Of a stretch of DNA of 64,000 nt, positions 38,032 to 54,095 are shown piece by piece. The notes beneath the pieces are model-generated. The model was given only the letters and a program-made list of their open reading frames with translations. It was not told where the DNA came from and ran no database searches. The DNA comes from Roseivirga seohaensis (lineage in GTDB: Bacteria; Bacteroidota; Bacteroidia; Cytophagales; Cyclobacteriaceae). Position 1 is the stretch's first letter. Each line of letters starts with the position of its first letter. The stretch is taken from the NCBI RefSeq assembly GCF_001592945.1, contig NZ_LRPB01000012.1:124001-188000 (forward strand), written 5' to 3'. A program made the translations under genes and the position numbers.

Positions 38032-38189
38032 CTTGAAAAATAATAAGCTCTTAGATATTCAACTTTAAATAAGTCTTTATTGGGTTGAAATGAAAATAAA
38101 AAACATGATAAATTTAATAAATTTTTAATTAAGGCAAATACAGTCTACTATAAAATTAGGTGTATGACTTTTATTTTAGTTATAACTGC

Positions 38190-38197
38190 TATATTTG
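38190..38197 (+). promoter_or_regulatory. Promoter -7 box of the beta-propeller gene
   Basis: TATATTTG exactly matches TAnnTTTG; a TTTT-like -33 lies 17 bases upstream. The expected leader is under 20 bases. Confidence 0.6.
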
Positions 38198-38220
38198 GTT
38201 TGAACCAATAGTAGTACTGT

Positions 38221-39342
38221 ATGATGCTGAAACTTATATCAAAATTATTGGCAACTAGTTTTATGCTAATGTGCATACTATCCTGTAATTCGGTTAAAGA
38301 TGAAAGCATCATTGTTTTTGGTGAATTAGAACAAGAAGAGTTTAGTGCTTTTTTATCGAGTACAGAACTCGAAGTTATTCCTTTGGCTACTGATGAGATG
38401 GTGATTGGTGGTTTCAGCATGGCGAGAAGTACCGATAATGAATACTTTGTCTTTTCTGGTCAAGAAGGTAAAGTACACCGTTTTGGTAGTTCAGGTAATT
38501 TTATAAATACCATTGGCCAAATAGGAGATGGCCCCACAGAATACAGAAGCCCAGCGGGTTTTGTGCTCTCTAACGATACTTTGGTAATACTTACATATAA
38601 GAAAGGTTCATCCTTATTTTATTATTCAAAACAAGGCGATTTTCTTAAATCCATGGATTTTGAAGAAAGCAGTTATGTGTCTTTTGAGTTGACGGACTAC
38701 GGTTACGTGTTTTCTACAGGAGCCAATAAAGTGTTTGAGAATAAGCACAACTTACATAGCCGGAATTTTAAAGGCGAATTGATCAGTAAGTTCTATCCTA
38801 TTGTTGACAGAGCCATGTTTTCTACAGGAGCTAATAATTTCGGTAGAGGAGAAAATGGCAGTCTTTACTTCGAGCCATTTAATAATCAGGTATATAAAGT
38901 TGAAAAGGATAGCTTGATGCCTACCTATGAATTCGATTTTGGTGATTTCAACCTAAAAGAGAATGCCTTTGATAGCGAGGATCCTTTTGAGAATTTTGAA
39001 AGGATTATGAATAATGGTATGGCCTTTATTCTGGCCTATTCTGAATCAGAAAACTATGCCTACTTCAATATAATGCTTCAGAAAAAAACTGATAAGCCTA
39101 AAGCATTTCATTTATTGTTGAATAAGAAAACAGGCAAATCTAAGCTAATCAAGAGTTTGGAAGAAACTGCTCCGGCCTTTCAGTTTATGGATGGAGATCG
39201 TTTGCTTTTTCTTTTTCATGCGGGTGACATACTAAATTTAGAGAAGGAAAATCCTGGGCTTTTTGGAAAACATCAACAGGTGATCGACAATATTAAATCA
39301 GACGACAATCCAATAATCGTAATTGCTAAAATTGATTTCTGA
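38221..39342 (+). CDS. 6-bladed beta-propeller lipoprotein
   Basis: 373 residues. Lipoprotein signal with LMCILSC (Cys about 21). The rest is repeating blades with the 6-bladed propeller wording: GKVHRFGSSGNFINTIGQIGDGPTEYR, an NHL-like pattern found in many Bacteroidota lipoproteins of unknown role. It presumably sits on the outer membrane. A propeller like this often pairs with a small thioredoxin-like or NVEALA protein; here it overlaps the next gene by one base (TGATG). Confidence 0.82.
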   Translation: MMLKLISKLLATSFMLMCILSCNSVKDESIIVFGELEQEEFSAFLSSTELEVIPLATDEMVIGGFSMARSTDNEYFVFSGQEGKVHRFGSSGNFINTIGQIGDGPTEYRSPAGFVLSNDTLVILTYKKGSSLFYYSKQGDFLKSMDFEESSYVSFELTDYGYVFSTGANKVFENKHNLHSRNFKGELISKFYPIVDRAMFSTGANNFGRGENGSLYFEPFNNQVYKVEKDSLMPTYEFDFGDFNLKENAFDSEDPFENFERIMNNGMAFILAYSESENYAYFNIMLQKKTDKPKAFHLLLNKKTGKSKLIKSLEETAPAFQFMDGDRLLFLFHAGDILNLEKENPGLFGKHQQVIDNIKSDDNPIIVIAKIDF

Positions 39343-39788
39343 TGAAAAAAAGCATGCCCTTGTTTTTTGTAATTGTTGCCTTGATCTTGTCCTGCTCTTC
39401 AGGTCCAAGAAAGCTTGTGCTCCCAAAACTGCCTGTGGTTTCTATTCAACCCGAGGCCGAAAATGAAAAGTCTCCTTTCGAGCTCACTCGAAATACATAT
39501 GTGGCTTACATTTATAAGAAGTGGCAAAAAGATAGACTTTATCAAATCGAGTTGGCAGTGGCTGATTGCATTAAGAAGAATATGGATTACCTTATTTATG
39601 TAGAAGCTGACACAGAAACTGAGGTAAAACAGTGGTTGACAGAGTTAGACTACAAATATTCGGTAGTTGTAGATAAGGAATCTCTTTTTAGAGAAGCCAA
39701 TGGAGAATCTGTAGAAGGATATAATGGCTATATTATAAATAAGGACAGAGATATATTGGGGAGTCCGAGAATTCAATATCGCCAATAA
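39342..39788 (+). CDS. Small lipoprotein, thioredoxin-like without CxxC
   Basis: 148 residues. Lipobox LILSC (Cys18). The part from about residue 50 (TYVAYIYKKWQKDRLYQIELAVADCIKKNMDYLIYVEADTE... YSVVVDKESLFREANG... YIINKDRDILGSP) resembles the fold order of thioredoxin-like/peroxiredoxin-type small lipoproteins of the phylum, including a VxxLxG-P ending, but lacks the redox Cys pair. Family call is tentative. It shares one base with the propeller gene and is clearly cotranscribed. Confidence 0.6.
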   Translation: MKKSMPLFFVIVALILSCSSGPRKLVLPKLPVVSIQPEAENEKSPFELTRNTYVAYIYKKWQKDRLYQIELAVADCIKKNMDYLIYVEADTETEVKQWLTELDYKYSVVVDKESLFREANGESVEGYNGYIINKDRDILGSPRIQYRQ

Positions 39789-39938
39789 GATTATGGTTAG
39801 TTTGAGTAAATACTAAGTAGAATTTTGTAGGTAATTAGGCTTAAGTCGATCTCTATTTGGAATTAATTTTTACCAGAAACTTAAATAACTAGTCAATTAG
39901 TTTTTTGAAATCATATTTTAGCATTATTTTGGACTATT

Positions 39939-41003
39939 ATGAAAAGATTTTTTTTGATATCGACCTGTTTTCTATTGTGTTTAGCTTGTAAAGACCAAAC
40001 CGTAAAGGTTGAAGAGGTAGACCAAGAAGCCTTAAGAAAACAAGTGCAACCTACTGAGGTAAAAGTAGCAACAGCAGAATACAGACCTTTCGAATTTTTA
40101 GTAAGTGCTACTGGTACTATCGAGTCCGACTATGAACTGGAAATTATTTTTGAAACCAGCGGATATTTAAAAGAGCTCAATATTGAAAACGGACAAAGGG
40201 TTAAAAAAGGGCAGGTCATTGGTCAATTGCAAAACGATAAAGAAAAATTTGCCCTAGAAAAAGCTCAGGTAGCCTTTGATAAAGCGTATCTAAATTACCG
40301 TAATGACTCGATTGCAAGAGGTAGCAATATTAACAAGGATGTTACCAATACTTTTGAATTGAACTCTGGAATGAAGGGAGCTAGAATTGATCTACGAGAA
40401 GCCCAAATCAATTTAGAGAACACCATTATTAAGGCACCTTCTGACGGTGTGATTGTTGATTTAGAAACAAAGGAGGGAAGTCTTGTTTCGGCAGGAAAAG
40501 TACTTTGTTCAATTTACAATGATAAAAGCCTTACACTTACCGCCAAGGTTTTAGAGCCCGACTTTGGTTATATAAAACGTGGCCTTGTAGCAGACGTTTA
40601 TCCGCTAGCCCGAAGAGATCAATCTTTTTTGGCCACTGTAAATGAGATCAACCCAAGGGTGAATGAAGAAGGAATGGTTCAGATAGAATTAAAATTGAAC
40701 CAATCAGAAGGACTTTTGCCAGGCATGAGTGCTAGCGCAATTATACGTGTACCTCAAGAATTGCACATTATTGTACCGAGAGAAGCGGTAGTGATTAAGC
40801 AAGGGAAGCCAGTTATTTTTACTGTAGTAAATGGAATGTCTCAGTGGAAATATGTAGAGATAGGACTTGATAACGGAACGGATGTAGAAGTGCTAGACGG
40901 CCTTAAAGAAGGCGACCAAGTGGTACTGACCAACAATATTCAATTAGCGCACGATGCTAAAGTTAGCATTGCCGAAGAAGACCTCACCAACTCTAACCAG
41001 TAA
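39939..41003 (+). CDS. RND efflux periplasmic adaptor (membrane fusion) lipoprotein
   Basis: 354 residues. Lipobox LCLAC (Cys17). Barrel-sandwich/lipoyl half domains flank a coiled-coil hairpin (about 95-145: KFALEKAQVAFDKAYLNYRND), then beta-barrel and membrane-proximal domains (VLEPDFGYIKRGLVADVYPLAR, GMSASAIIRVPQELHIIVPREAVV). It links the RND permease directly downstream (3 bases) to an outer-membrane channel not found here. Confidence 0.92.
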   Translation: MKRFFLISTCFLLCLACKDQTVKVEEVDQEALRKQVQPTEVKVATAEYRPFEFLVSATGTIESDYELEIIFETSGYLKELNIENGQRVKKGQVIGQLQNDKEKFALEKAQVAFDKAYLNYRNDSIARGSNINKDVTNTFELNSGMKGARIDLREAQINLENTIIKAPSDGVIVDLETKEGSLVSAGKVLCSIYNDKSLTLTAKVLEPDFGYIKRGLVADVYPLARRDQSFLATVNEINPRVNEEGMVQIELKLNQSEGLLPGMSASAIIRVPQELHIIVPREAVVIKQGKPVIFTVVNGMSQWKYVEIGLDNGTDVEVLDGLKEGDQVVLTNNIQLAHDAKVSIAEEDLTNSNQ

Positions 41004-41006
41004 GCA

Positions 41007-44000
41007 ATGGTTAAATTTCTGATCAATCGACCTGTTGCGGTATTCCTCAGCTTTATAGGTATTTTATTTTTTAGCTTTTTAGCTTTACAAAGGTTGCCGG
41101 TTTCTTTATTGCCCAATATAGAGGTGCCTGCTATTATAGTTAAGGTAAACTACCCTAATAACCCGCCTAGCATTATTGAGAATAGCATCCTCAGCCCAAT
41201 CCGCACTTCGCTAAACACGCTAAATAACCTAAAGTCGGTTGAAAGTATTGCTAATAGTGAAACTGGAATGCTCAAATTACAATTTGAGTTTGGCACTAGA
41301 ATGGACTTGGCCTACATCGAGATCAATGAAAAGATTGATAGGCTTCAGGAAAATCTGCCGCGTGATATGGATAGGCCGCAAGTGGTACGAATCAATACTT
41401 CAGACATTCCAATTGCTAGAATTCAGGTAATTCCTAAAGAAGGAAGTGACTACACACAAACATCAGAACTAACCGACCGAGTTTTAAAGAAAAGAATAGA
41501 ACAAATCAGTGGAGTGTCCATTGTAGACGTAAATGGTTTTCAAGGTCAGTTTATAAGCATTACCCCAGATTTAGACAAGATAAGAGCCCTTGGTCTTTCT
41601 GAACAACAAATTGATCAGGTTTTACAGGGAGCCAATCGCGATTTAGGTAGACTTTCGGTAAAGGATGGTCAGTATCGATATTTTGTCCGAATTGCTAACC
41701 GCTTAGACAATATTGATGAGATTGAACAACTTCCAATTATCAATAGAGAAGGTGATGTAATTAAGCTAAGTGCAATTGCTGAAGTTAAGTTTCAGTCCGA
41801 TAAAAGGCAGGGCTATCACTTGAGCAATCAAGAAGAGGGCTTGGTGGTAACGGTGCATAAGCAGGCCAAGGCCAAAATGACGGAATTGACACCATTGCTT
41901 TATGAAGCAGTGGAGGAGTTTAAAAAGGATTATCCGCAAACTAACTTTGAACTTACTCAAGATCAATCAATTTTGCTTAATGCTGGAATCGATAACTTAA
42001 AAACCAGCCTTATCTATGGGGGCATCTTCGCCTTTGCTGTACTTTTTCTTTTTATGGGAAATGTGCGCATGCCAATTATGATGGGAATTACACTTCCTAT
42101 TTCACTTCTGATAAGCTTTTTATTCTTCTATGCTTTTGGTCTTTCTGTAAACATTATTTCACTAAGTGGTTTAGCGCTTGGTTTAGGAATGCTGATCGAT
42201 AACTCAATTATTGTGATCGACAACATTACTAGAAAAAGGAAAGATGGGCTGGATATAGTGGAAGCCTGTGTGCAAGGGGTAAATGAAGTAATGACCCCGC
42301 TCATTAGTTCTGTATTGACCACATTGGCAGTATTCGTTCCCTTAGTTTTCCTTAATGGACTCTCGGGTGCGTTGTTTTATGATCAAGCACTTTCCGTAGC
42401 TATCATTCTAGGCACATCTTTAATGGTGGCTTTCGTGCTATTGCCTTTGCTTTATCGTAAGTTTTTTGAAAACCTGAAAAGACCTATTAAGGAAGATAGT
42501 CTGATTTTTAAAGGAATTCTGAAATTGTACAAAGCCATTTTTAGTGTGGTTTGGCGATTTAAAACCATAAGCCTTATTCTACTGATTGCTTTGATTCCTT
42601 TGGCTTATTTTATGATTATTGGCGCTCATAAAGAGGGCTTGCCAGCCATTGAGAAAACAGAAACTTTGGTAACTATTCAATGGAACGAACCCCTTGATGC
42701 TGAAGAAAATAAAAGAAGGGTGTTAGACCTCATAGCTAAAACAGCTGGTTCTACCCCAAGCGAATCAGATATTGGGTTGAAACAATTTTTATTGGCGGAA
42801 CAGAGTAATTCTATTGAAAGTGCTGAAGTGTATTTCAAGTCCGAGTCTACCGAAGCTAAATTAGATTTAGAGCAAAAGCTGACGGCTTTTTTAACGAATA
42901 ATTATAGAAATGCTTCATTCCAGGTAGAGGATGCTCCAAACGCTTTCGATCAAATTTTTAGCTCAGATCAAAAATTCTTTATTGTAAAATGGAAGCAGCT
43001 TTCTGGTAATCAACGCCTTGACGAAGGAATGCTTGCTAAGCTTGAAAACGATGTGGCAGAAATTGTAAATGAGCCACCGCGCCCAGGGAATGGTTTTCAG
43101 TTTGGTGAGTCTATGGAAGCCGTGATTGATAATAAAGCTTTGTCTTTTTATGGTATTTCAGAAAACGCCATGAAAGATGCGCTTTCAAAAGCATTAGATG
43201 GTTATATGGTTACTGAAATCAGACGTTTTGGTGAGGTGACACCCATTTGGATTCAACGCGGATCAGAGGATTTTAGAAGTAAGCTAAATGGCATATCCGT
43301 ACAAGGAAGAAGAAATCAATCGTATCCGCTTTCGAGCTTTGTTAAATTCGAATACATTAAAGACATCAAAGCTGTAACCGCTGATAAAACGGGAATTTAT
43401 CAGAGTTTAGAATGGGAAAACCTTGATGACGCTTCTATAGAAAAACTACAAGCGCAATTGCCGGCAAAGGCAGCTCAATACGGTCTGTCTGTCGATTTTG
43501 ATGGCGCTTATTTTCAAGGGCGTGAAAACCTTCAGCAGTTGATTTTCATTTTAATGATCTCTGTACTTCTGCTCTATTTCATTTTGGCCGCTCAGTTCGA
43601 ATCATTAGTTCAGCCTTTAATTGTCATTTTCACTTTACCGCTTGGGGTGTCAGGTGCGCTTTTGGTATTAATGATTTCTGGAGGAACGCTCAATGTAATG
43701 TCGGCCATTGGTATAATTGTAATGCTAGGAATTATGGTGAACGATGCCATTCTAAAAATTGATACCATAAACAGGTTAAGGGAAGAATTTTCGTTGAGTG
43801 ATTCTACAAATACCAAACGCCAAATATTACAGAATGCCATAGCAAAAACTGGTCAAATAAGGCTCAAACCTATATTAATGACCTCGATTACAACCATTTT
43901 AGCATTATTGCCAGTTGTCTTTTCAAGCGGAATTGGTGCAGACTTGCAAAGACCGCTAGTTTACACGGTTATAGGCGGTTTGACCATAGGTACTTTTACC

Positions 44001-44054
44001 GCTCTGTTTTTTGTTCCGTTGTCTTACTGGGTAATTAGTAAGAAAAGGGATTGA
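41007..44054 (+). CDS. RND-type efflux permease
   Basis: 1015 residues. Twelve TM helices with two large periplasmic loops; TM4 GLGMLIDNSIIVIDNITRKRKDG carries the conserved Asp; EVPAIIVKVNYPNNPPSIIE at the N-terminus and the FTLPLGVSGALLVLMISGGTLNVMSAIGIIVMLGIMVNDAI C-half confirm the family. Translation is probably coupled to the adaptor gene. Together they form an efflux pump needing a TolC-like channel from elsewhere. Substrate class (drug or metal) cannot be decided. Confidence 0.93.
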   Translation: MVKFLINRPVAVFLSFIGILFFSFLALQRLPVSLLPNIEVPAIIVKVNYPNNPPSIIENSILSPIRTSLNTLNNLKSVESIANSETGMLKLQFEFGTRMDLAYIEINEKIDRLQENLPRDMDRPQVVRINTSDIPIARIQVIPKEGSDYTQTSELTDRVLKKRIEQISGVSIVDVNGFQGQFISITPDLDKIRALGLSEQQIDQVLQGANRDLGRLSVKDGQYRYFVRIANRLDNIDEIEQLPIINREGDVIKLSAIAEVKFQSDKRQGYHLSNQEEGLVVTVHKQAKAKMTELTPLLYEAVEEFKKDYPQTNFELTQDQSILLNAGIDNLKTSLIYGGIFAFAVLFLFMGNVRMPIMMGITLPISLLISFLFFYAFGLSVNIISLSGLALGLGMLIDNSIIVIDNITRKRKDGLDIVEACVQGVNEVMTPLISSVLTTLAVFVPLVFLNGLSGALFYDQALSVAIILGTSLMVAFVLLPLLYRKFFENLKRPIKEDSLIFKGILKLYKAIFSVVWRFKTISLILLIALIPLAYFMIIGAHKEGLPAIEKTETLVTIQWNEPLDAEENKRRVLDLIAKTAGSTPSESDIGLKQFLLAEQSNSIESAEVYFKSESTEAKLDLEQKLTAFLTNNYRNASFQVEDAPNAFDQIFSSDQKFFIVKWKQLSGNQRLDEGMLAKLENDVAEIVNEPPRPGNGFQFGESMEAVIDNKALSFYGISENAMKDALSKALDGYMVTEIRRFGEVTPIWIQRGSEDFRSKLNGISVQGRRNQSYPLSSFVKFEYIKDIKAVTADKTGIYQSLEWENLDDASIEKLQAQLPAKAAQYGLSVDFDGAYFQGRENLQQLIFILMISVLLLYFILAAQFESLVQPLIVIFTLPLGVSGALLVLMISGGTLNVMSAIGIIVMLGIMVNDAILKIDTINRLREEFSLSDSTNTKRQILQNAIAKTGQIRLKPILMTSITTILALLPVVFSSGIGADLQRPLVYTVIGGLTIGTFTALFFVPLSYWVISKKRD

Positions 44055-44516
44055 ATTTTCGGTAAAAGCAGATGGGCATTGAACAGCGTTTTTATAACAA
44101 ATGCTTTAATGCTACCCACTTTTATTCGGTACTAATTTTTGAGTTAGAACATTACTTTCCAGTTCCTTCAATCCATGACCATCAATTGCAGGGTAAAACA
44201 TTGCTAATTTTAAGTTGTAACCTATCCAATATTTAGCGTTTTGCTTTTATCTATCTAGGAATTCAAAGTTTGTAAAAAGACAGATATGGCCGATCATGGA
44301 AAATTGTACCCATCTAACACAACCTATTCAGGGTCAGGGGTGTCTTGATTGTTGAACAACAGATACCAGTAAGTAATTAATTAATAGAGCCCTCATAAAT
44401 ATACTTGCAATTGATCTTATATCTTTTATATATTTGACGGCACTATTCTGAATTTTGATTATTTGAACTATAAATGTTAAAATACAAATAGCTGTCATTT
44501 CTTTTTTTCTTACATT
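44055..44516. other. 462-base intergenic region with an operon promoter
   Basis: No supported gene. It holds a promoter (44405-44436) for the following operon and an 11-base palindrome TTGTTGAACAA near 44350. A 19-codon frame at 44296-44355 is too short to support. Confidence 0.6.
44405..44436 (+). promoter_or_regulatory. Promoter of the STN-TonB receptor/DUF4249 operon
   Basis: TTG (44405-44407), 21 bases, TATATTTG (44429-44436): a full TTG-N-TAnnTTTG promoter. The start codon of the first gene is about 80 bases downstream. Confidence 0.7.
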
Positions 44517-45221
44517 ATGATTCGACTTTCTCTTATAACCCTCCTTATACTTATTCAAATTAAGGTGTATGGACAACAATACAACCTAAAGGATTTTAAC
44601 CTAGAAGGAGATATTAACACGTGGTACAGTGCACGTTTCGATTCGGTAAATATTAAACCGATGACAGGAGTGCTCGCAAGCTTGGCTTCACAAAGGCCAA
44701 AGGTCAATGCTTTTTTTACAGAGAATACGCTGGACTGGATGAAGGCCAGCATTATGTATGATAATCAGCGCTACGATAATGTTCGCATTAAGTATGATAT
44801 AGAGCAGCAGCTTGCTTACATCTCGCACCCTTTGAATAAGCAAACCATTACCCTAGATCAACAACTGGTTAATTGGTTTAGAACTCCTGCCGGAATATTC
44901 AAACCAAAGAATGAAGCAACAGGCTACTACCTGATAATCTTTGAGGGAGAACAGCTTTCACTAGTTAAAGAAAGCTCCAAACGGCTGGTTATCCAAAATC
45001 GTGAGTTTGACTATGCACGTACGGATGAACTCTTTTTATTGACAAATAATGAGAAGGTGCGCATCAAGAATAGAAAGTCTTATCTAAAACAATTCCCAAC
45101 ACACAAAAAGGAAATAAAAAAGTTTATGCGATCTCAAGAATCTCGTGAAATAAATAGAATGGGTAAGGAAAGTTTCCTGATCCACTTGGCTAAGTACTGT
45201 GATAACCTTTCTATCCAATGA
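44517..45221 (+). CDS. Secreted protein, unknown, first gene of the TonB/DUF4249 operon
   Basis: 234 residues with a signal peptide (ILIQIKVYGQQ cleavage region). Basic C-terminal half ending in a helical segment (RSQESREINRMGKESFLIHLAKYCDNL). No family recognised; a pattern of mixed strands and lysine-rich helices. Its last codons overlap the next gene's ATG (ATGA), so it is an integral member of the operon, perhaps a periplasmic partner of the receptor. Confidence 0.7.
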   Translation: MIRLSLITLLILIQIKVYGQQYNLKDFNLEGDINTWYSARFDSVNIKPMTGVLASLASQRPKVNAFFTENTLDWMKASIMYDNQRYDNVRIKYDIEQQLAYISHPLNKQTITLDQQLVNWFRTPAGIFKPKNEATGYYLIIFEGEQLSLVKESSKRLVIQNREFDYARTDELFLLTNNEKVRIKNRKSYLKQFPTHKKEIKKFMRSQESREINRMGKESFLIHLAKYCDNLSIQ

Positions 45222-48010
45222 GAAAAATAATCGCAATTAGCTTATTGGTTCTAAGTCTCAATGGCTTTGCCCAGCAAAATCAACCAACCTTTTCTGGAAC
45301 ATATGAAAGCGCTCCGTTTGAAAAGGTTGTTTTAGATATGGAAGCCAGCTTGGCTTATACTTTTTTCTATAAAAAGGAGTGGATTGATTCACTACAGTTT
45401 ACGGGCGTATTTAATCAAACACCTTTAGAGGCTGCACTAAACAAGCTTGTTGAAAACACTCCTTTAAGGTTTTACCTAGATGGGGAAAAAGTGTATTTAA
45501 CTAACGGAATTACCATTATTACTACTCCTGAAATTGTAAGTAATGTGTTAGCTCAAGCGAATAAACGTAAAGAAGAACCGAAGGTAGACGAAGCGAAAGA
45601 GCTTCTTTTTACCAAAGAGTTTAAGGGCGAAACGCAGAACAGCAAAGACCTAGAAAATTATGTTTTTGAAGTGGGAAGTAGAGCGCAGTTTAAAGCGGGA
45701 AGTAATTCAACGCTGGTGGGGTATATTAAAGACAATATGACTGGAGAGCCAGTAGAGGGAGCTCTTGTATATACATCCGATGGTAATAAGGGATCTATTT
45801 CTGGTAAAGATGGCTTTTATTCTTTGAATATCCCGAATGGAAAACATGAGCTGCAAGTGCAGTTCACTGGAATGAAGCGAGCCAGAAGAAATATTATTCT
45901 CTTTTCAGATGGCCAGCTGAATATCGGGATGGATGTAGATGTAATTGCTTTAAATGAGGTAGTTGTAGAAGCCAATAGAGGAGCCAATATTGAGCGATTA
46001 ACTACAGGGGTTGAACGACTCAATGTTGAACAATCTAGAACAGTACCTGTGGTTTTGGGTGAAAAAGATATTTTAAAAGTTGCCACTACTTTTGCAGGTA
46101 TTCAAACCGTAGGAGAAGGCGCTGCAGGGTTTAATGTTAGGGGAGGAAAATCTGATCAGAACCTATTCCTTTTCGAAGGCGCTACAGTATATAATGCATC
46201 ACACTTTATGGGCTTCTTTTCAGTATTCAACTCTGACGCCCTTCAGGGAATGGAAATTTTCAAAAGTGGTATTCCTGCCAGTCGTGGAGGAAGGTTGTCA
46301 TCAGTTTTTGAAATCACAGCCAAAACAGCCAATAAAGAAAAACTTGTTGTGGAAGGCGGGGTGTCACCAATTACCTCTAGAGTAACGGCTGAAATTCCTA
46401 TTATAGAAGGTAAATCGTCTCTTTTGGCCAGTGGAAGGGTTACCTATTCTGATTGGATTCTTCAGAGTGTAGCCCATTCTGATTTCAAAGGCAACAAGGT
46501 TTCTTTCAGTGATTTTATTGTTAAATACGATCATGAAATCAATCAAGAAAACAAATTGTCACTTTCGGCTTACCTGAGTAAGGATGACTTCCGATTAAGT
46601 TCTGATACACTGTTTTCATTCTCTGATTTCTCTTATATCAATGAAATGGCTTCCGCTAAATGGCTACACAGAGTAAACGAAACTATGGATGCTTCTCTAA
46701 TAGCTACATACAGCAAATATGAGTATGACTTCGAGTCAACTCAGCTGGTGAAAAATGCTTTTGGACAAGATTTTGGAATAAAAGAGTATGGAGCAAAACT
46801 TGATATTAATAAGGATTTGCAGGCTGCTCACCAGCTCAATTTTGGATTGGAAGCAAAAAGATATGACATCAATCCAGGCACTAAGTCCCCCATTGGCCAA
46901 GAGTCTATTGCCGCTACCGTTAAACTAAGTCCAGAACAAGGAATTGAAGGAGGGCTTTATGTTTCTGATAAGCACGAAATCAATGAAAAGCTGAGTTTTA
47001 ATTATGGTCTTCGATATAGCTTTTTCACATATTTAGGCCCAGGAGTTACCAGCCTTTATTTAGAAAATGCTCCAAAAAATGCCGATACCCAGACTGGTCA
47101 GACAATCCATGGAAAAGGTGATTTTATAAAAACTTATCAAGGCCCTGAATTACGATTGGCCGCAAGGTATATGTTAGGCGATAGTCGTTCTGTAAAGCTC
47201 AGTTACGATAAAAGCAGACAGTACCTGCATGCGCTATCTAACAGCTCATCTTTGTCGCCAACTGATATTTGGAGGCTTTCAAACAGTTACATAAAACCTC
47301 AAACTGGCGATCAAATATCGCTCGGCTATTATGAAGACTTTTTAAATAGTGAACTAGAAACTTCACTTGAATTATATGCGAAGAAATTAGATAACCTGCT
47401 CGATTTTAAAACAGGAGCTGATTTTCTGCTAAATGACAGAATTGAATCTATTGCGCTTCAAGGTCCTGGAAAATCATACGGTTTAGAACTGTCTTTGAAG
47501 AAATCAACAGGTCGATTGAACGGTTGGTTTAACTATTCATATGCACGTACTTTTATAAAGCTAGATGGAGAGTTTGATGAGGAAACGGTCAATAACGGAA
47601 AGTTCTTCCCTACCAATTACGATAAACCACACACTATCAATTTGGTGAGTAACTATGAAATTACATCAAGGTTTACTGTATCGTATAACCTTGCTTACAG
47701 CACAGGCCGACCTATTACTTTCCCTACAGGACTTTATAAACTGAACGGGGTTGAAATTTTAAACTATTCCAATAGGAATGAATACCGAATTCCAGACTAT
47801 TTCAGAATGGATTTGGGCTTTACCTTAAAATGGGGGCATAGAATAACTAAAGGGGCTCACTCTTTCTGGTCTGTCTCAATTTATAATCTCGTTGGTAGGA
47901 AAAACCCATTCTCTCTTTACTTCGATTTAGAAGATGGGGTAGTAAAAGGATACAAACTATCTGTATTTGGCTCGCCAATCCCGACCATCTCTTACAACTT
48001 TAAATTCTGA
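45218..48010 (+). CDS. TonB-dependent receptor with STN and carboxypeptidase-like domains
   Basis: 930 residues. Signal peptide; STN (secretin/TonB N-terminal) domain about 22-95 (TFSGTYESAPFEKVVLDMEASLAYTF); CarboxypepD_reg-like domain about 165-250 (LVGYIKDNMTGEPVEGALVYTSDGNKGSISGKDGFYSL); plug about 255-400 (GVERLNVEQSRTVPVVLGEKDILKV, NVRGGKSDQNLFLFEGATVYNASH); then a beta-barrel ending in aromatic Phe (SYNFKF). An STN domain usually contacts an anti-sigma factor, but no sigma or anti-sigma gene is nearby. Substrate unknown. Confidence 0.92.
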   Translation: MRKIIAISLLVLSLNGFAQQNQPTFSGTYESAPFEKVVLDMEASLAYTFFYKKEWIDSLQFTGVFNQTPLEAALNKLVENTPLRFYLDGEKVYLTNGITIITTPEIVSNVLAQANKRKEEPKVDEAKELLFTKEFKGETQNSKDLENYVFEVGSRAQFKAGSNSTLVGYIKDNMTGEPVEGALVYTSDGNKGSISGKDGFYSLNIPNGKHELQVQFTGMKRARRNIILFSDGQLNIGMDVDVIALNEVVVEANRGANIERLTTGVERLNVEQSRTVPVVLGEKDILKVATTFAGIQTVGEGAAGFNVRGGKSDQNLFLFEGATVYNASHFMGFFSVFNSDALQGMEIFKSGIPASRGGRLSSVFEITAKTANKEKLVVEGGVSPITSRVTAEIPIIEGKSSLLASGRVTYSDWILQSVAHSDFKGNKVSFSDFIVKYDHEINQENKLSLSAYLSKDDFRLSSDTLFSFSDFSYINEMASAKWLHRVNETMDASLIATYSKYEYDFESTQLVKNAFGQDFGIKEYGAKLDINKDLQAAHQLNFGLEAKRYDINPGTKSPIGQESIAATVKLSPEQGIEGGLYVSDKHEINEKLSFNYGLRYSFFTYLGPGVTSLYLENAPKNADTQTGQTIHGKGDFIKTYQGPELRLAARYMLGDSRSVKLSYDKSRQYLHALSNSSSLSPTDIWRLSNSYIKPQTGDQISLGYYEDFLNSELETSLELYAKKLDNLLDFKTGADFLLNDRIESIALQGPGKSYGLELSLKKSTGRLNGWFNYSYARTFIKLDGEFDEETVNNGKFFPTNYDKPHTINLVSNYEITSRFTVSYNLAYSTGRPITFPTGLYKLNGVEILNYSNRNEYRIPDYFRMDLGFTLKWGHRITKGAHSFWSVSIYNLVGRKNPFSLYFDLEDGVVKGYKLSVFGSPIPTISYNFKF

Positions 48011-50238
48011 TGGGGATGAAAATAACTCACATAAGAACAAACCGATTTTTGGCTATAATTACGCTGTTTTTTGTAGCAATTATAAATGCTTTAGCTCAAA
48101 CCGAAAATGTAAGAGAGCGAGTGTTTATCGATGTTAATACTCACGATTTACTTGTAGGAGAAACCCTTCAGTATTCAACTTTCTGTTTAAGTAATACAAC
48201 AAACAAACCTTCGGCTCTTAGTAAATACCTTTATGTTGAATTAATAGGTGAAGGAGGAGTTGTTTTTCAACGAAAACACCAGCTAGAAAATGGAAAAGCC
48301 AGCGGGGAATTTTTCATTCCATCTAATATAGAAACCGGTAAATACTACCTTGTGGCTTACACTCGCTGGATGCGAAACTTCGATGATGTAACCCAAGCTC
48401 CACTTATATTCATAAACCCATATAAAGGGCATACAAATGCAGATGTTTTAACTGAAGACGTAACGGTAGAATTTAATACGGTTTCGGGTGTTTTAATAGC
48501 AAATACTGCCAATAATGTGGTTTTTAAAGTGAGCCAAGGCAATAAACCGTTGATAAGGAAAGGCCGAGTAATTAGCGAAGATGGAAAGCAAATAGTAGAT
48601 ATTAATAGCGATGCCAATGGCTTTGGTGCTTTTGAAATTACCCCTGAAAAGGGAAAGTCCTACCAAATGCTTATTGAAAACCCTGAAGGAGGTTTTAAAT
48701 TCTTTGACCTACCTTCTGCTACGGACACAGGTGTGGGGCTAAATATTTTGCATACCAATGCTGAAATTGAATTGAAGCCGTATGGTGATGTGAAAGGTGG
48801 TAGGCTTTACATTGAGCATCAAGGAAACGTAGTTTTAGAGCGCGATGTACAGAGCACCTACCCAATTAGAATAAAAAGAACAGAATTACCTTATGATGTT
48901 TTAAGGGTTTCTTTTAAAGATAACCAAGGAAAGTTAAGCTATTTGGTGCCTTTGTTCAATACAAAACTTGGTTTAGAAACATCACCAACTATTCTTGAAA
49001 CCCGATCGCCAGCCGTAATTGAGCAGCAGCTTGCCAAAGGAAATTATAGTGTTTCTATTCGTAAATCATTTGGCAATCAAACACCGCAAATGCATGCGGC
49101 TTTCTCTAAAGAAGGTCTGAGTTTACCAGAAAATCTTGATTACACTGAACTACAAAATGCAGCAAGTTTTTATCGAATAGAGGAAAAAGAATTACCTACC
49201 AGCATTTCATTTTTACCAGAGTACCGTTATCAATTGCTTGAAGGTGTCTTGAAAGCAGAAAGTGGTTCAGCTTCTGTGGAAAATAAAAATGTTATACTTA
49301 GCCTGACCGGTGAAAAAATTCTGAATATGTCTGTAGCAAGAACAGACAGTGAGGGGCGATTTTTGCTCGAGTACCAAACAATGAATCGAGGAAAGCAAAC
49401 GGATGCTCACCTTACCATGCCTGAGTTTGAAAGCGAATATTCCTTTGAGATCAGCGATAACTTTAAGAAGCAACATCAGTTGGATTTCTCTCCAGTAATT
49501 ATTGATACAGCCCAACTTGCAGAAATTAGAGAGCGTAGTATCATCAGTCAGCTAGAAAACGCCTACTTCACACCGCTTATCGATTCTTCAGAAATTGAAA
49601 ACAATATTTTACCAACAATGAATGCCTTTAATGCTCATTACGAATTCGATGATTATGTAAGGTTCCGTACTTTAAAAGAGCATTTAGTAGAGTACATTTC
49701 TGTGGCGGGAGTAAGAGAGAAACGTGGCGTGAAACGTTTTGTGGTTTACGATTTAGATTCAAATTTTGATTTTGAGCTGGAGTCATTGGTGTTGCTAGAT
49801 GGTGTGCCTGTTCACGCCCCCGATTTACTAGAATTCAGCCCATACAGAATAAAAAGTGTAGATATAGCCAATAAACGCTATTTTTTAGGCTCTTATATCG
49901 CAGATGGAGTACTAAGTTTTAAAACTATAGAAGGCAACCTTGGAGGCTTTGAAATAAAAAACAATCACATGGCCTTCAGTTTGTTAACTCCTGAAGCAGA
50001 ACCAAAAACTGCAGGAGGAAACCCCTTAGAAGACCTGAGAACTCCAGACGCTAGAATTCAATTGTTATGGGCTCCTGAATATGAGGTAGCCGAAGACGGA
50101 GTAGAACAAATTCAATTCAATACTTCAGATGTAGAAGGGGATTTTGAATTGGTGATTGAAGGTTTTACAGAAGAAGGAATACCAGTTTCAATAATTAAAA
50201 AAATCAAGGTAAAAGAGCGTACGAATGAAAAAGGTTAA
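48010..50238 (+). CDS. Secreted protein with MG2-like (macroglobulin) N-terminus
   Basis: 742 residues. Signal peptide (LAIITLFFVAIINALAQ). Residues 30-140 look like an MG2 beta-sandwich of the alpha-2-macroglobulin type (RVFIDVNTHDLLVGETLQYS..., GKYYLVAYTRWMRNFDD); a later plug-like segment may resemble TonB receptor parts (VLLDGVPVHAPDLLEFSPYRIKSVDI: receptor-plug wording). The stop-start overlap with the receptor (TGATG) shows tight linkage. It likely assists at the surface as a large lipoprotein-free partner; no catalytic motif seen. Confidence 0.72.
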   Translation: MGMKITHIRTNRFLAIITLFFVAIINALAQTENVRERVFIDVNTHDLLVGETLQYSTFCLSNTTNKPSALSKYLYVELIGEGGVVFQRKHQLENGKASGEFFIPSNIETGKYYLVAYTRWMRNFDDVTQAPLIFINPYKGHTNADVLTEDVTVEFNTVSGVLIANTANNVVFKVSQGNKPLIRKGRVISEDGKQIVDINSDANGFGAFEITPEKGKSYQMLIENPEGGFKFFDLPSATDTGVGLNILHTNAEIELKPYGDVKGGRLYIEHQGNVVLERDVQSTYPIRIKRTELPYDVLRVSFKDNQGKLSYLVPLFNTKLGLETSPTILETRSPAVIEQQLAKGNYSVSIRKSFGNQTPQMHAAFSKEGLSLPENLDYTELQNAASFYRIEEKELPTSISFLPEYRYQLLEGVLKAESGSASVENKNVILSLTGEKILNMSVARTDSEGRFLLEYQTMNRGKQTDAHLTMPEFESEYSFEISDNFKKQHQLDFSPVIIDTAQLAEIRERSIISQLENAYFTPLIDSSEIENNILPTMNAFNAHYEFDDYVRFRTLKEHLVEYISVAGVREKRGVKRFVVYDLDSNFDFELESLVLLDGVPVHAPDLLEFSPYRIKSVDIANKRYFLGSYIADGVLSFKTIEGNLGGFEIKNNHMAFSLLTPEAEPKTAGGNPLEDLRTPDARIQLLWAPEYEVAEDGVEQIQFNTSDVEGDFELVIEGFTEEGIPVSIIKKIKVKERTNEKG

Positions 50239-51475
50239 TTACAAGACATTAGCCAAACTATGGCTGTTAATGTTGGTGGTGTTTGCTACTACTTCTTGTA
50301 TCGAAGAGATAGAAACAGCTTCTTTTACTTATGATAGACTTTTGGTGGTAGATGCCAATATATCTGACCAAGCCAAAGCTCATGAAGTCCGTTTGTCTTA
50401 TACTACTCCAGTAGATGGAGATGTTGATGATGCTTTTAATGCAGTTATAGGAGCAGAAGTTTGGATAGAAGATGACCTTGGCAATCGTGTTGATTTTTAT
50501 GAACAAAGTGCGGGTGCTTATTTTACTGCTGACACTTATGCTGGCGAGGCAGGCAGGAGCTATTCGCTGTTTATTACCACCAATGACGGAAAGCGATATC
50601 AATCATCATTTGAAAAACTGGTGGCAGCACCAGAGGTGAGTGAAATCTACAATCGTTTTGCAATAGAATCAACAGACCAAGAGGGAGGCGCTACACCTGG
50701 AGTTCAGTTTTTTATCGATGTTAAAGAGGCAGACCAAAGCACTCAATTTTATAGATACGAATGGACTGATGCTCATCAAGTAATGGTTCCCTTTGTTAAA
50801 AAGTGGGAAGCAACACCTTATTATGTGGGTTTAGCAATGTTCTATAGAATTACCCCTTTTAATGAAGATGTGCAGGAATGTTACAGAGAAAATCAATTCA
50901 ATGAGCTGATACTGGCTACCTCAGCAACAAACATTAACGGTGAGTTAAGTGAAATACCAATTAGCTTTTCTCCAGCTACTGATTTCGATGTCACCACCAT
51001 GTATTCTATTGAAATTACACAGCGAGCTATTAGCCCGCAGGCTTATAGCTACTACCGAAAAATTAAACTCTTCAACGAATCAAACGGTTCGTTGTTCGAT
51101 AAGCAGCAAGGAATAATTGTAGGGAATATTCGGTCTATCGACTCTCCTGATGAGCAAGTGTTGGGCTATTTCGAAGTGGCTGGCGCAAGTAGCAAAAGGG
51201 TTTTTTTAGCTCCTTTTGAGCTAGACCCTGAAGTTTATGAATATGTAACCAAGCCTTGTGAAACATATTCAGCTATGGCATTTGATGGTTCATTAAATAC
51301 TTTTTATGAAGCTACCGATCTTCCTGAAGATTTGAGAGGCTCTGTAATTCCTATACGTGAACTTTATGAGCTTTACGATTACGATCAGTATACTGGCACT
51401 AAATTTTTGGCACATCGCCTTTGTGCAGACTGTAGAAAGAAAGGTAGTATAGGAAAACCAGAATGGTGGCAATAA
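50225..51475 (+). CDS. DUF4249 lipoprotein, paralogue 1
   Basis: 416 residues; lipobox ATTSC (Cys about 26). Full DUF4249 family length with IEEI at the start of the mature protein and FTYDRLLVVDANISDQAKAHEVRLSY. Four later cysteines are shared by the three paralogues (CYREN, CETY, C-x-x-C in RLCADCRKKGS) and a fixed KPEWWQ C-terminus. DUF4249 genes often sit beside TonB receptors and may contact them at the outer surface. It overlaps the MG2-like gene by 14 bases. Confidence 0.88.
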   Translation: MKKVNYKTLAKLWLLMLVVFATTSCIEEIETASFTYDRLLVVDANISDQAKAHEVRLSYTTPVDGDVDDAFNAVIGAEVWIEDDLGNRVDFYEQSAGAYFTADTYAGEAGRSYSLFITTNDGKRYQSSFEKLVAAPEVSEIYNRFAIESTDQEGGATPGVQFFIDVKEADQSTQFYRYEWTDAHQVMVPFVKKWEATPYYVGLAMFYRITPFNEDVQECYRENQFNELILATSATNINGELSEIPISFSPATDFDVTTMYSIEITQRAISPQAYSYYRKIKLFNESNGSLFDKQQGIIVGNIRSIDSPDEQVLGYFEVAGASSKRVFLAPFELDPEVYEYVTKPCETYSAMAFDGSLNTFYEATDLPEDLRGSVIPIRELYELYDYDQYTGTKFLAHRLCADCRKKGSIGKPEWWQ

Positions 51476-51572
51476 TATGAATTGAAAGGAATGTAGTTCT
51501 TCAATGTAGAGTTATTTCAATATGACTCTTCCAGTCTTAAATGATTTAAAGAAAATGGAAAAGAGGTTCAGA

Positions 51573-52826
51573 ATGAAGAGGATAACAGAAGGAGCATTGA
51601 CTCGAGTTTACTTAATACTCTTGGTCTTGTTCGCAACTTCCTGCATTGAAGAGATAGATACGACCTCTTTTACATATGAAAAACTACTGGTGGTAGATGC
51701 CAATATTTCTGATCAGGCAAAAGCCCATGAAGTACGTTTATTTTACACCTCGCCCATCGATGGAGATGTGGATGATACATTTAATGCTGCAACAGGCGCC
51801 ACAGTTTGGGTGGAAGATAATCTGGGGATTCGCACATACTTTACAGAACAAAGTTCAGGTAATTACCTTTCTTCAGCCGCCTTTGCTGGAGAAGCGGGAA
51901 AAAGTTATACGCTTTTTATTACTACTCGTGAAGGAAAAAGATATCAGTCATCTGTAGAGAAATTAGTTGCTGCGCCAGAAATCACAGGAATTTATAATCG
52001 TTTTGCTGTTGAACCTGTTGGTCAAGAAGCTATTTCCACCCCAGGGATTCAGTTTTTTATTGATGTAGAAGATGACAGTCAAAGTACTCAGTTTTATCGT
52101 TATGAATGGACTGATGCCCATCAAGTTATAGTTCCTTTTCCAAAAAAATATGAGACAACAATTATATATCCTGGTGGAATGTCAGAACCCATTTATATTC
52201 TTGATCCCTTTAATATTAATGTAAGCGAATGTTATAGGGAAAGTAGATTTGATGAAGTGGTGTTAGCCTCGTCTGCTAGTAACAGTAATAGGGAACTACG
52301 TGAAATTCCAATCTTCTTTTCAGAAGCGTCCAATTTTGATGTCACTACCAAATATTCTATTGAAGTAACCCAACGAGCTATAAGTGTTCAGGCATATGGT
52401 TACTATCGAAAAATAGAAATGTTTAATGAATCCAATGGTTCATTGTTCGATAAACAACATGGTGCAATTGTGGGGAATATTTTATCAATGGATTCACCAG
52501 ACGAAAAAGTATTGGGTTATTTTGAGGTTTCTGGAGCGAGCAGCAAAAGAGTCTTTCTAGAGCCTTTTCAGTTAGATGAAAAAGTAATGGACTATGTAGT
52601 TCGCACTTGTGAAGAGTATGATGTCCTAGAATTTGAAGGAGACCTGAATTCATTTTATAAAGCCACTGGCGTTCCAGAGATATTGTGGGGAGATGAACTG
52701 GTAAAACGAGCTTTTTATGAAGTTTATGATTATGACCCACTTAATGACACGAAGTTTCTTGCCCACCGCCTTTGTATAGACTGTCGAACAAGAGGAAGTC
52801 TTGGAAAACCAGAGTGGTGGCAGTAA
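51573..52826 (+). CDS. DUF4249 lipoprotein, paralogue 2
   Basis: 417 residues from the ATG at 51573, chosen because it gives the same signal-peptide length as the other paralogues (lipobox FATSC); the frame is open farther upstream. The mature N-terminal third (51651-52000) is almost identical at DNA level to the matching part of paralogue 3. The C-terminal half is the most divergent of the three (DPFNINVSECYRES, VPEILWGDELVKRAFYEV) but keeps CEEY, RLCIDCRTRGS and KPEWWQ. Separated from paralogue 1 by about 97 bases. Confidence 0.88.
   Translation: MKRITEGALTRVYLILLVLFATSCIEEIDTTSFTYEKLLVVDANISDQAKAHEVRLFYTSPIDGDVDDTFNAATGATVWVEDNLGIRTYFTEQSSGNYLSSAAFAGEAGKSYTLFITTREGKRYQSSVEKLVAAPEITGIYNRFAVEPVGQEAISTPGIQFFIDVEDDSQSTQFYRYEWTDAHQVIVPFPKKYETTIIYPGGMSEPIYILDPFNINVSECYRESRFDEVVLASSASNSNRELREIPIFFSEASNFDVTTKYSIEVTQRAISVQAYGYYRKIEMFNESNGSLFDKQHGAIVGNILSMDSPDEKVLGYFEVSGASSKRVFLEPFQLDEKVMDYVVRTCEEYDVLEFEGDLNSFYKATGVPEILWGDELVKRAFYEVYDYDPLNDTKFLAHRLCIDCRTRGSLGKPEWWQ
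51651..52000 (+). repeat. Near-identical 350-base tract, copy A (paralogue 2)
   Basis: Aligned by eye without gaps to 52934-53283 with only about two dozen mismatches. Flanking parts of the two genes are far less alike. Confidence 0.8.
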
Positions 52827-52853
52827 TGATTTTTTTATTATATAAAGATTGAG

Positions 52854-54095
52854 ATGAAAAAGGGCAAATACAGAAGATTACTAAAGCTTTGCCTAGTATG
52901 GTTGCTAGTGTTTTTCACTACCGCCTGCATTGAAGAAATAGATACAACCTCTTTTACATATGAAAAACTACTGGTGGTGGATGCCAATATTTCTGATCAG
53001 GCAAAAGCCCATGAAGTACGTTTGTTTTACACCTCCCCCATCGATGGAGATGTAGATGATACATTCAATGCTGCAACTGGCGCCACAGTTTGGGTAGAAG
53101 ATAATCTGGGGATTCGTACATACTTTACAGAACAAAGTTCAGGTAATTACCTTTCTTCAGCTTCTTTTGCTGGAGAAGCGGGGAAAAGCTACACGCTTTT
53201 TATTACTACTCGTGAAGGAAAAAAATATCAGTCATCTGTTGAGAAATTGGTGCCTGCGCCAGAAATCACAGAAATTTATAATCGTTTTGCAATAGAATCA
53301 GCGGGGCAAAAGGCAACCTCAACCCCCGGGGTTCAGTTTTTTATTGATGTGGTTGATGCTCAGCAAAGCACACAGTTTTATCGTTATGAATGGACTGATG
53401 CTCATCAAGTTATGGTTCCATTTACTAAAAAGTATGATGCCGTGTTTGCGGGTTGGGCAGGTTATGTGATTTCTCCATTTAACGAAGATGTTAAAGAATG
53501 CTATAGAGAAAACAGCTTCGATAATCTAATACTGGCCAACTCAGCAAGTAGCTCTAATGGCGAGTTACGCGAAATACCAATTAGATTTTCAGCAGCGTCT
53601 GATTTTGATGTTACCACCATGTACTCTATTGAAATAACGCAGCGAGCAGTCAGTGCTGAGGCTTATAGTTATTACAGGAAAATCAAGCTTTTCAACGAAT
53701 CCAACGGCTCTCTTTTTGATAAACAACAGGGTATTATTGTAGGAAATATTTCATCAATAGACACTCCTGATGAGCAAGTATTGGGGTACTTTGAAGTTTC
53801 TGGTGCCAGCAGCAAGAGAATCTATATAGGGCCTTCTGAATTGGATGAAGAAGTTCTGGAATATGTAGTCAGACCATGTGAGAAATACTCTGAAATGGGA
53901 TTTGAAGGTTCATTAAACACTTTTTATGAAGCTGAAGATCTTCCCGAAGACCAAAGAGGAGCAGTGATACCTATAAGAGAATTATACGAACTATACGATA
54001 TAGAGCAAGGAACCGGAATGAAATTACTTGCCCATCGCCTTTGTTCTGACTGCAGAAAAAGAGGTAGTCTTGAAAAACCAGAATGGTGGCAATAG
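52854..54095 (+). CDS. DUF4249 lipoprotein, paralogue 3
   Basis: 413 residues; lipobox FTTAC (Cys about 24). Mosaic character: its N-terminal third matches paralogue 2 almost perfectly at DNA level (52934-53283), whereas its C-terminal half reads much closer to paralogue 1 in protein (ISPFNEDVKECYREN, YSIEITQRAVSAEAYSYYRKIKLF, AVIPIRELYELYD). Keeps the four shared cysteines and the KPEWWQ end. Last gene of the operon; no terminator hairpin is obvious before the convergent DUF4293 gene. Confidence 0.88.
   Translation: MKKGKYRRLLKLCLVWLLVFFTTACIEEIDTTSFTYEKLLVVDANISDQAKAHEVRLFYTSPIDGDVDDTFNAATGATVWVEDNLGIRTYFTEQSSGNYLSSASFAGEAGKSYTLFITTREGKKYQSSVEKLVPAPEITEIYNRFAIESAGQKATSTPGVQFFIDVVDAQQSTQFYRYEWTDAHQVMVPFTKKYDAVFAGWAGYVISPFNEDVKECYRENSFDNLILANSASSSNGELREIPIRFSAASDFDVTTMYSIEITQRAVSAEAYSYYRKIKLFNESNGSLFDKQQGIIVGNISSIDTPDEQVLGYFEVSGASSKRIYIGPSELDEEVLEYVVRPCEKYSEMGFEGSLNTFYEAEDLPEDQRGAVIPIRELYELYDIEQGTGMKLLAHRLCSDCRKRGSLEKPEWWQ
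52934..53283 (+). repeat. Near-identical 350-base tract, copy B (paralogue 3)
   Basis: Direct-repeat partner of 51651-52000; see that entry. Offset between the copies is 1283 bases. Confidence 0.8.

Follow-up and report, generated by a model that had tools for sequence, protein, structure and literature searches.

A conserved Bacteroidota gene module in which an STN-bearing TonB receptor and DUF4249 lipoproteins adjoin a macroglobulin-plug protein rather than FecR

Lipoprotein-lidded TonB-dependent transporters are a main nutrient gate of the Bacteroidota, and STN domains are read as signalling devices. In Bacteroides, lipoprotein lids were described to feed TonB-driven barrels (PMC10404256). 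BT2172 and BT2173 form a conserved operon of a TonB transporter and a DUF4249 protein, in which disruption of either gene has similar consequences, and the BT2172-type receptor subfamily is nearly always encoded beside a DUF4249 gene (PMC11003636). FecR-type anti-sigma factors have a C-terminal, STN-like domain that serves as the docking site of STN domains (PMC11637429). Here, we describe six genes (44517-54095) in a 64,000-nucleotide stretch of Roseivirga seohaensis DNA (contig NZ_LRPB01000012.1, positions 124,001 to 188,000; this whole stretch is called the window). The six genes are the Roseivirga version of a conserved Bacteroidota module with four kinds of gene: g1, encoding a small exported protein; T, a TonB-dependent receptor with an N-terminal STN domain; D, a DUF4249 lipoprotein, present here as D1, D2, and D3; and M, a macroglobulin-like protein with a plug-like domain. 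The reading that we favor, with a probability of about one half, is a lipoprotein-lidded, TonB-powered importer in which periplasmic g1 and/or M, instead of FecR, would be the docking partner of the STN domain.

The module resembles BT2172-BT2173 in that a TonB receptor is paired with an adjacent DUF4249 gene. The common T-D pair, as found in the first survey described below, has no M or g1, and consists of a receptor of mostly 743-872 amino acids (aa) and a lid of mostly 266-332 aa; moreover, four cysteines of the module's lids are absent from the seven short DUF4249 proteins that were aligned. The proposed arrangement of a surface lipoprotein over a TonB-dependent barrel is shared with the pedal-bin systems SusCD, BtuBG, and XusAB (PMC10404256, PMC13142918, PMC7782687), and T also carries the CarboxypepD-like N-terminal extension (NTE) of SusC, but the module has a lipoprotein of another family and two extra exported proteins. 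In T, the STN domain stands before the NTE (45302-45967), an order also seen by Pfam in three FecR-linked relatives, whereas in SusC hybrids the NTE precedes the STN domain (PMC7782687). The N-terminal STN domain of a TonB receptor is likewise found in FecIRA, and FecR, usually with an extracytoplasmic function (ECF) sigma factor, is the alternative neighbor within the receptor family of T; the module, however, has no adjacent FecR, and M, often with g1, is found instead. M is similar to alpha-2-macroglobulin and complement C3 in its MG2 domain and in its predicted multi-macroglobulin (MG) fold, but differs in lacking a conserved CxEQ motif and in carrying a TonB plug between the CarboxypepD-like and the last MG-type domain. 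A full-text literature search for DUF4249 returned PMC11003636 alone, and no account of the four-gene set g1-T-D-M was found among the papers listed from the literature searched, most subscription papers and preprints falling outside it. As far as these searches reach, the four-part form with its swapped STN partner is new, and the T-D core is known; the initial annotation, which knew of no description of the complex, is only partly right, the receptor-DUF4249 pair having been published (PMC11003636).

Conservation was assessed over 80 module loci, the best 80 of at least 592 confirmed relatives of T, ranked by their likeness to T in a profile scan of a species-genome collection. The loci were gathered with the receptor profile; the whole M profile gave no conserved stretch to search by. 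T was adjoined by D in 77 loci, by g1 in 76, and by M in 75, with all four kinds together in 69 and the order g1-T-D-M in 50 (median spacings of -1, 3, and 4 bases). Five of the 11 loci without all four run off the contig on the missing downstream side (L082, L112, L122, L150, L151), and in another, L089, T lies at the contig start. In most module loci, M and D are adjacent to each other. The seven g1-bearing loci of the genus that were mapped besides the window have the order T-M-D with between one and three lids, and L109 shows this order again. Module taxa, as labelled, comprised Cytophagales, Flavobacteriaceae, Chitinophagales, Mucilaginibacter, Parabacteroides, other Bacteroidales, and one metagenome-assembled genome of the Chlorobiota. 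The linkage is strongly conserved across the phylum; confinement to one strain, which would have refuted the reading of the initial annotation, was not observed, and a conserved module around a TonB receptor-DUF4249 pair fits the nutrient-handling outer-membrane complex that had been proposed initially. No other gene family recurred in the flanks of more than 12 of the 80 loci (the top clusters occurred in 12, 11, and 10 of them, and at most 4 of the 113 immediate neighbors belonged to one family), and the flanks gave no clue to the substrate.

The neighbors of the STN-bearing receptors were compared in two DUF4249-driven surveys, which involved no selection for M and drew on DUF4249 matches from three genome searches (169 loci). 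In survey 1, six of 89 loci lacked a DUF4249 chain by the profiles used and 21 of 86 chains lacked a full receptor in reach; in survey 2, for which the STN profile had been rebuilt beforehand, the corresponding figures were two of 80 loci and five of 78 chains. These were set aside. Among the 65 full-receptor chains of survey 1, M was present in five, all with STN-bearing receptors, and five other STN-like receptors had no M ([[5,5],[0,55]], p = 3e-5). Each of the latter had FecR 34-104 bases upstream, and an ECF sigma gene was present in four of the five; M and FecR were both absent from the remaining 55 chains, and a sigma gene lay upstream in one of these. A perfect STN-M match obtained with the first STN profile (5/5 versus 0/60, p = 1.2e-7) was overturned by these five additional STN-like receptors without M. 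The 73 chains of survey 2 included six with STN and M but no FecR, six with STN and FecR but no M, one with M but no STN (L266), and 59 with none of the three. The remaining chain, L254, was first scored as having neither partner, its FecR lying beyond the 3.5 kb limit, and was moved to the FecR group after inspection revealed a tandem run led by FecI/FecR.

In the combined 138 chains, STN was accompanied by M in 11, by FecR in 12, by both in none, and by neither in none; one chain had M without STN, and 114 had none. If the loci are treated as independent, the mutual exclusion of M and FecR in the 23 receptors with STN gives p = 7e-7. M adjoined T solely where the receptor carried STN or was fused to g1 (12/12). 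All 12 FecR proteins passed the Pfam cut-offs for FecR and FecR_C, and 10 had an ECF-type sigma gene upstream. The STN domains of L227 and L231 were read by eye, Pfam having failed to report them, and L216, with a truncated receptor N-terminus, was counted as lacking STN. The DNA covered at the 80 module loci, which reaches more than 3.5 kb upstream in 58 of them, contained no FecR-like gene; the sole profile match was a receptor itself. The absence of a sigma/anti-sigma pair, remarked upon from the outset, was confirmed among the 11 flanking window genes scanned, and proved to be the key to the comparison. In L139 (9917-12667), the FecR-derived profile matched the module receptor itself (4e-06), which fits an STN-like fold common to the FecR C-terminus and the receptor STN domain.

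A tree built by a quick method placed the module receptors essentially in one clade (a starred branch with 44 rows, of which 39 are of module type), with the FecR-linked receptor L231 as its sister. Because there is one such clade with a FecR-linked sister, the topology suggests that M replaced FecR a single time. Within the module clade, five nested short rows all lacked M; four of these had no STN domain (L210, L211, L212, L214) and one was truncated. The 27 rows taken from the 80-locus set were pre-labelled as module, including L122, in which M was unseen at a contig end, and L149, in which there was no STN match.

The six genes of the initial annotation were confirmed as open reading frames (ORFs) on one strand of the window (Table 1). 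The overlaps of 1-14 bases attributed to all of them are restricted to the first four genes (g1/T, 4 bases; T/M, 1; M/D1, 14), D1-D2 and D2-D3 being separated by gaps of 46 and 27 bases, and the supposed six-gene system, though locally true, is a form of the four-part module with duplicated lids. The true start of D2 is perhaps 33-51 bases inside the annotated one, where ATGs occur at 51555 and 51573.

Table 1. Coordinates in the window of the six genes, their domains, and the candidate promoter
Feature	Position	Strand	Basis
Candidate Bacteroidota-type promoter, TTG-N21-TATATTTG	44405..44436	+	Pattern; identical in R. ehrenbergii
g1, small exported protein, 234 aa; signal peptide (by eye), beta-rich body, helical C-terminus	44517..45221	+	Model
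T, TonB-dependent receptor, 930 aa; STN, CarboxypepD-like NTE, plug, barrel	45218..48010	+	Domain profiles
T, STN/FecR_C-like periplasmic domain, residues 29-93	45302..45496	+	Profiles, homologues
T, CarboxypepD_reg_2 (NTE) domain, residues 168-250	45719..45967	+	Profile
T, plug domain, residues 286-358	46073..46291	+	Profile
M, macroglobulin-like protein, 742 aa; plug domain but no barrel; signal peptide lacking a lipobox (by eye)	48010..50238	+	Profiles, model
M, MG2 domain, residues 50-117	48157..48360	+	Profiles
M, CarboxypepD-like domain, residues 403-490	49216..49479	+	94.1%, 1.2e-7 versus same domain of T
M, plug-like domain, residues 541-650	49630..49959	+	Profile comparison; paralogues
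M, C-terminal Ig/MG-type domain, residues 653-735	49966..50214	+	Model; MG7 resemblance putative
D1, DUF4249 surface lipoprotein, 416 aa; C-terminal Cys extension	50225..51475	+	Profile, alignment
D2, DUF4249 lipoprotein, 434 aa; annotated start probably too early	51522..52826	+	Profile; internal ATGs
D3, DUF4249 lipoprotein, 413 aa; ~300 bases near start nearly match D2	52854..54095	+	Profile, alignment

The assignment of T as an STN-bearing TonB receptor was borne out. Matches of T to CarbopepD_reg_2 (2.8e-14) and Plug (2.1e-05) are clear; the STN-like domain is sub-threshold in the window protein alone (FecR_C, 24.2 bits against a cut-off of 24.4; STN, 14.8 bits), and is backed by homologues. 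Among 15 aligned homologues, CarbopepD_reg_2 and Plug were detected in all, FecR_C in nine, STN in two, a barrel model in four, and OMP_b-brl_4 in seven, and 78 of the 80 module receptors gave an STN profile match. T scored 51.1 bits against TIGR04056, far from the 368-bit cut-off for SusC/RagA equivalence. The R. ehrenbergii match to T is at 98%. In L068 (1923-4675) the receptor is split across two frames, apparently a broken copy or an assembly fault.

The MG2 domain of M is weak in the window protein alone (E = 0.0018, below the Pfam cut-off), but was found in 53 of 72 homologues (best 2.3e-11), in support of the MG2-like protein of the initial annotation. Among solved structures, the M profile matched the SusC plug (5t3r, 8.6e-6) and the MG2 domain of complement C3 (4e-5). 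Profile-profile comparison with the CarboxypepD-plug stretch of T revealed the same domain order (71.7%, 3.5e-5); when the comparison was split (hhalign), the CarboxypepD pair reached 94.1% (1.2e-7) and the plug pair 43% (2.5e-4), whereas controls, consisting of 13 other domain pairings and 10 column-shuffled comparisons, reached at most 2.4%. The AF2 model of M (pLDDT 82, pTM 0.72) resembled C3 and alpha-2-macroglobulins by Foldseek (3e-14, at low global TM), and C3 by VIA (Z = 17.0; 214 residues at 3.2 A, spanning model residues ~34-738). No beta-barrel was matched by profile or was apparent in the secondary structure of the model, and the CxEQ thioester motif, found in one of 72 sequences, is not conserved. 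M has paralogues outside the module; one of them, in L158, scores above the cut-offs of Pfam for MG2 (35.3 bits) and for Plug (30 bits) alike, and M is accordingly assigned to a wider macroglobulin-plug protein family. Proteins that combine a macroglobulin scaffold with a plug domain but have no barrel are unusual. Since no Ton box was recognized by eye in its plug, M itself is probably not pulled by TonB; it might gate the barrel, take up cargo, or act purely as a binding module. Two genomes of the same genus, represented by L158 (G007:C72) and L159 (G011:C57), contain tandem arrays of macroglobulin-plug genes, mostly of 814-1191 aa; some of the array proteins have an extra N-terminal CarboxypepD domain, and there is no DUF4249 gene in the 19.9 kb covered.

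Scans of Pfam at E up to 1 and of NCBIfam at E up to 0.1 gave no match for the window's g1. Its AF2 model is confident (pLDDT 88.1), and no convincing match to its fold was found in the PDB (Foldseek best E, 0.17; VIA best Z, 3.0). Three sequence matches to engineered proteins (best 2.2e-05) were set aside, as they were located in the lysine-rich helical end. In L266, a single 1122-aa frame comprises g1 (residues 32-254, 128.7 bits) and the receptor (match from residue 331), with no STN domain detectable between the two parts, even without filters; D and M then follow. The N-terminal domain of a TonB receptor is periplasmic, and, because g1 is fused to that end in L266, we infer that g1 resides in the periplasm near the receptor N-terminus.

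The three DUF4249 lipoproteins of the initial annotation were confirmed: D1-D3 match DUF4249 with E values of 1.2e-38 to 4.3e-41, each with a lipobox cysteine, and match no family other than DUF4249, SusD included, above cut-off. In the module DUF4249 proteins, which extend C-terminally past the Pfam domain, the aligned lipobox cysteine is present in 105/105 and a strict lipobox pattern in 81/104. Cys 219, Cys 345, Cys 400, Cys 403, Pro 412, and Trp 415 (D1 numbering) are likewise present in 105/105, and are replaced by gaps or other residues in the seven short proteins aligned, except for one Pro at 412. These cysteines may form either disulfides or a metal site. By a simple pattern, the four-Cys motif is absent in L213, L069, L070, and L071 and present in orphan lids, and so is not tied strictly to M. 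At least two lids occur in 18 of the 80 module loci. No solved relative of DUF4249 was found by sequence, the best profile match being a biofilm protein at 0.0084.

Several further observations concern the lids. D2 and D3 share 90-97% identity across four successive 75-base blocks (alignment columns 150-450) but 49-85% over the rest, a mosaic that suggests gene conversion or domain-wise divergence; a similar contrast is seen in R. ehrenbergii. Phase variation of the three lids was considered as a further possible reading. Orphan Cys-type DUF4249 lipoproteins, single or up to three in a row, occur with no receptor nearby in L209, L217, L228, and L238, and could possibly be extra lids for a receptor encoded elsewhere. 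Further orphan DUF4249 genes are present in L250 and L253; inspection by eye of the neighbors of orphan lids gave no substrate clue. In L065 (7800-8977), a second DUF4249 gene is in two fragments, apparently a broken copy or an assembly fault.

In the mechanism that would accommodate these findings best, D1-D3 would serve as alternative surface lids that catch the substrate over the barrel of T. T would keep its STN "antenna" in the periplasm, and the FecI/FecR genes that lie beside STN receptors elsewhere in the receptor family are missing; their place in the operon would be taken by M and, within one large clade, by g1, both of them exported and probably located in the periplasm. Either the STN domain or, more generally, the N-terminus of T may dock on g1 and/or M, forming a standing periplasmic assembly that would receive incoming cargo, or re-seat and gate the plug, rather than send a signal to transcription. 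Retention of STN while FecI/FecR is swapped for exported scaffolds makes it testable what an STN domain does without an anti-sigma factor. A bolder version holds that M is a plug in trans: a periplasmic macroglobulin arm, recruited on loss of the FecR-type anti-sigma factor, would dock on an STN/g1 platform, and its own plug would seal or ratchet the barrel for large cargo. We consider this version doubtful; if it is true, a TonB transporter would have an additional plug that can be exchanged, and STN a function other than signalling.

Several findings weigh against the reading that we favor. The plug match is weak in single members of the M family, of which four of 72 pass E = 0.01 in Pfam, and the plug-plug pair stops at the 43% given above. 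The g1-T fusion is known from one draft genome only, and no second one was found in 60 sampled relatives or in other ORF sets. Moreover, L266 lacks STN yet keeps M, whose binding partner may therefore not be STN. Four of the 11 STN+M chains in the surveys have no adjacent g1, which therefore cannot be a universal STN partner. The module is patchy: a g1-family match was found in 46 of 198 genomes of the phylum, not all within modules, and in 7 of 19 genomes of the genus, that of the window included. STN was undetected in two of the 80 module receptors. The p value of 7e-7 overstates the number of independent events, because the M group is essentially one clade; treekit gave four independent STN/M contrasts on the best tree and one on starred branches, with all pre-labelled rows taken as STN+M. 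Finally, sigma-type genes without FecR occur somewhere in 8 of the 80 module loci, and in L161, an STN+M locus, M has an ECF sigma gene downstream on its own strand; because of these genes, the module may have a signalling link.

It is somewhat unlikely that the module is an ordinary lidded importer of the BT2172-BT2173 type, in which M and g1 act on the cell surface to capture a substrate or protein, unrelated to STN. Macroglobulin domains are typical protein-binding modules, which would suit such a role, as would the frequent adjacency of M and D and the predominance of T-D pairs without STN, M, or FecR (114/138 chains). However, M and g1 have a signal peptide without a lipobox (by eye) and no type IX sorting domain in Pfam or NCBIfam scans, M is found beside T in the surveys only for STN receptors or the g1 fusion, and the fusion in L266 points to the periplasm for g1. 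Alternatively, STN might be the relic of a FecR-regulated ancestor and have no partner now, M and g1 having been recruited for another job and the exclusion reflecting a single ancestral replacement. The single module clade with its FecR-linked sister and the small number of independent contrasts favor this view, but STN is still detectable in module receptors across the phylum, the four STN-less receptors within the module clade also lack M, and a relic would be expected to occur with neither partner too, which was observed in 0/23; on balance, we judge it unlikely. An unrecognized signalling route, in which STN reports substrate occupancy through M and/or g1 to a remote sigma/anti-sigma pair or some other sensor, is in keeping with the classical function of STN domains (PMC11637429), with the sigma-type genes mentioned above, and with partners that could be encoded in trans, but is very unlikely, given that, apart from the signal peptide, neither a transmembrane segment nor a cytoplasmic portion was noticed by eye in M or g1, that no regulator recurs beside the module (sigma-like flank clusters occur in 6 and 5 of 80 loci), and that sigma factors make up 4 of the 113 immediate neighbors, three being of housekeeping type (among the 25 families listed).

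The promoter at 44405-44436, considered a good one in the initial annotation, is present as a pattern and is kept, fully or nearly so, in two other genomes; the pattern itself is neither in excess in the window nor common in the phylum. Nine Bacteroidota-type patterns occur on both strands of the window, compared to 14.7 expected from a first-order model, and in a sigma-70 scan the site is a 9/12 match, of which 19 were seen versus 32.4 expected. The 32-base stretch is identical in R. ehrenbergii and matches at 31/32 in G014, where an alignment of the ~440 surrounding bases agrees in just 279 of 465 columns. The 250 bases preceding the g1 ORF yielded no such stretch in four further genomes of the genus. 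Phylum-wide, the pattern is present at one of 72 module loci. A scan for riboswitches or other RNA control gave one sub-threshold chance match in the window region, and only an unrelated S-adenosylmethionine (SAM) riboswitch in six module loci.

Among the window genes scanned, the downstream flank contains a DUF4293 gene on the opposite strand, a thiolase, a tRNA pseudouridine synthase, and two ABC exporters, and the upstream flank an RND efflux adaptor and permease. Two AcrB-type RND permeases on opposite strands, one with an HlyD-type adaptor, immediately precede the module (34915-44054), and upstream of these efflux genes is a gene for an M28-family peptidase (32530-34182).

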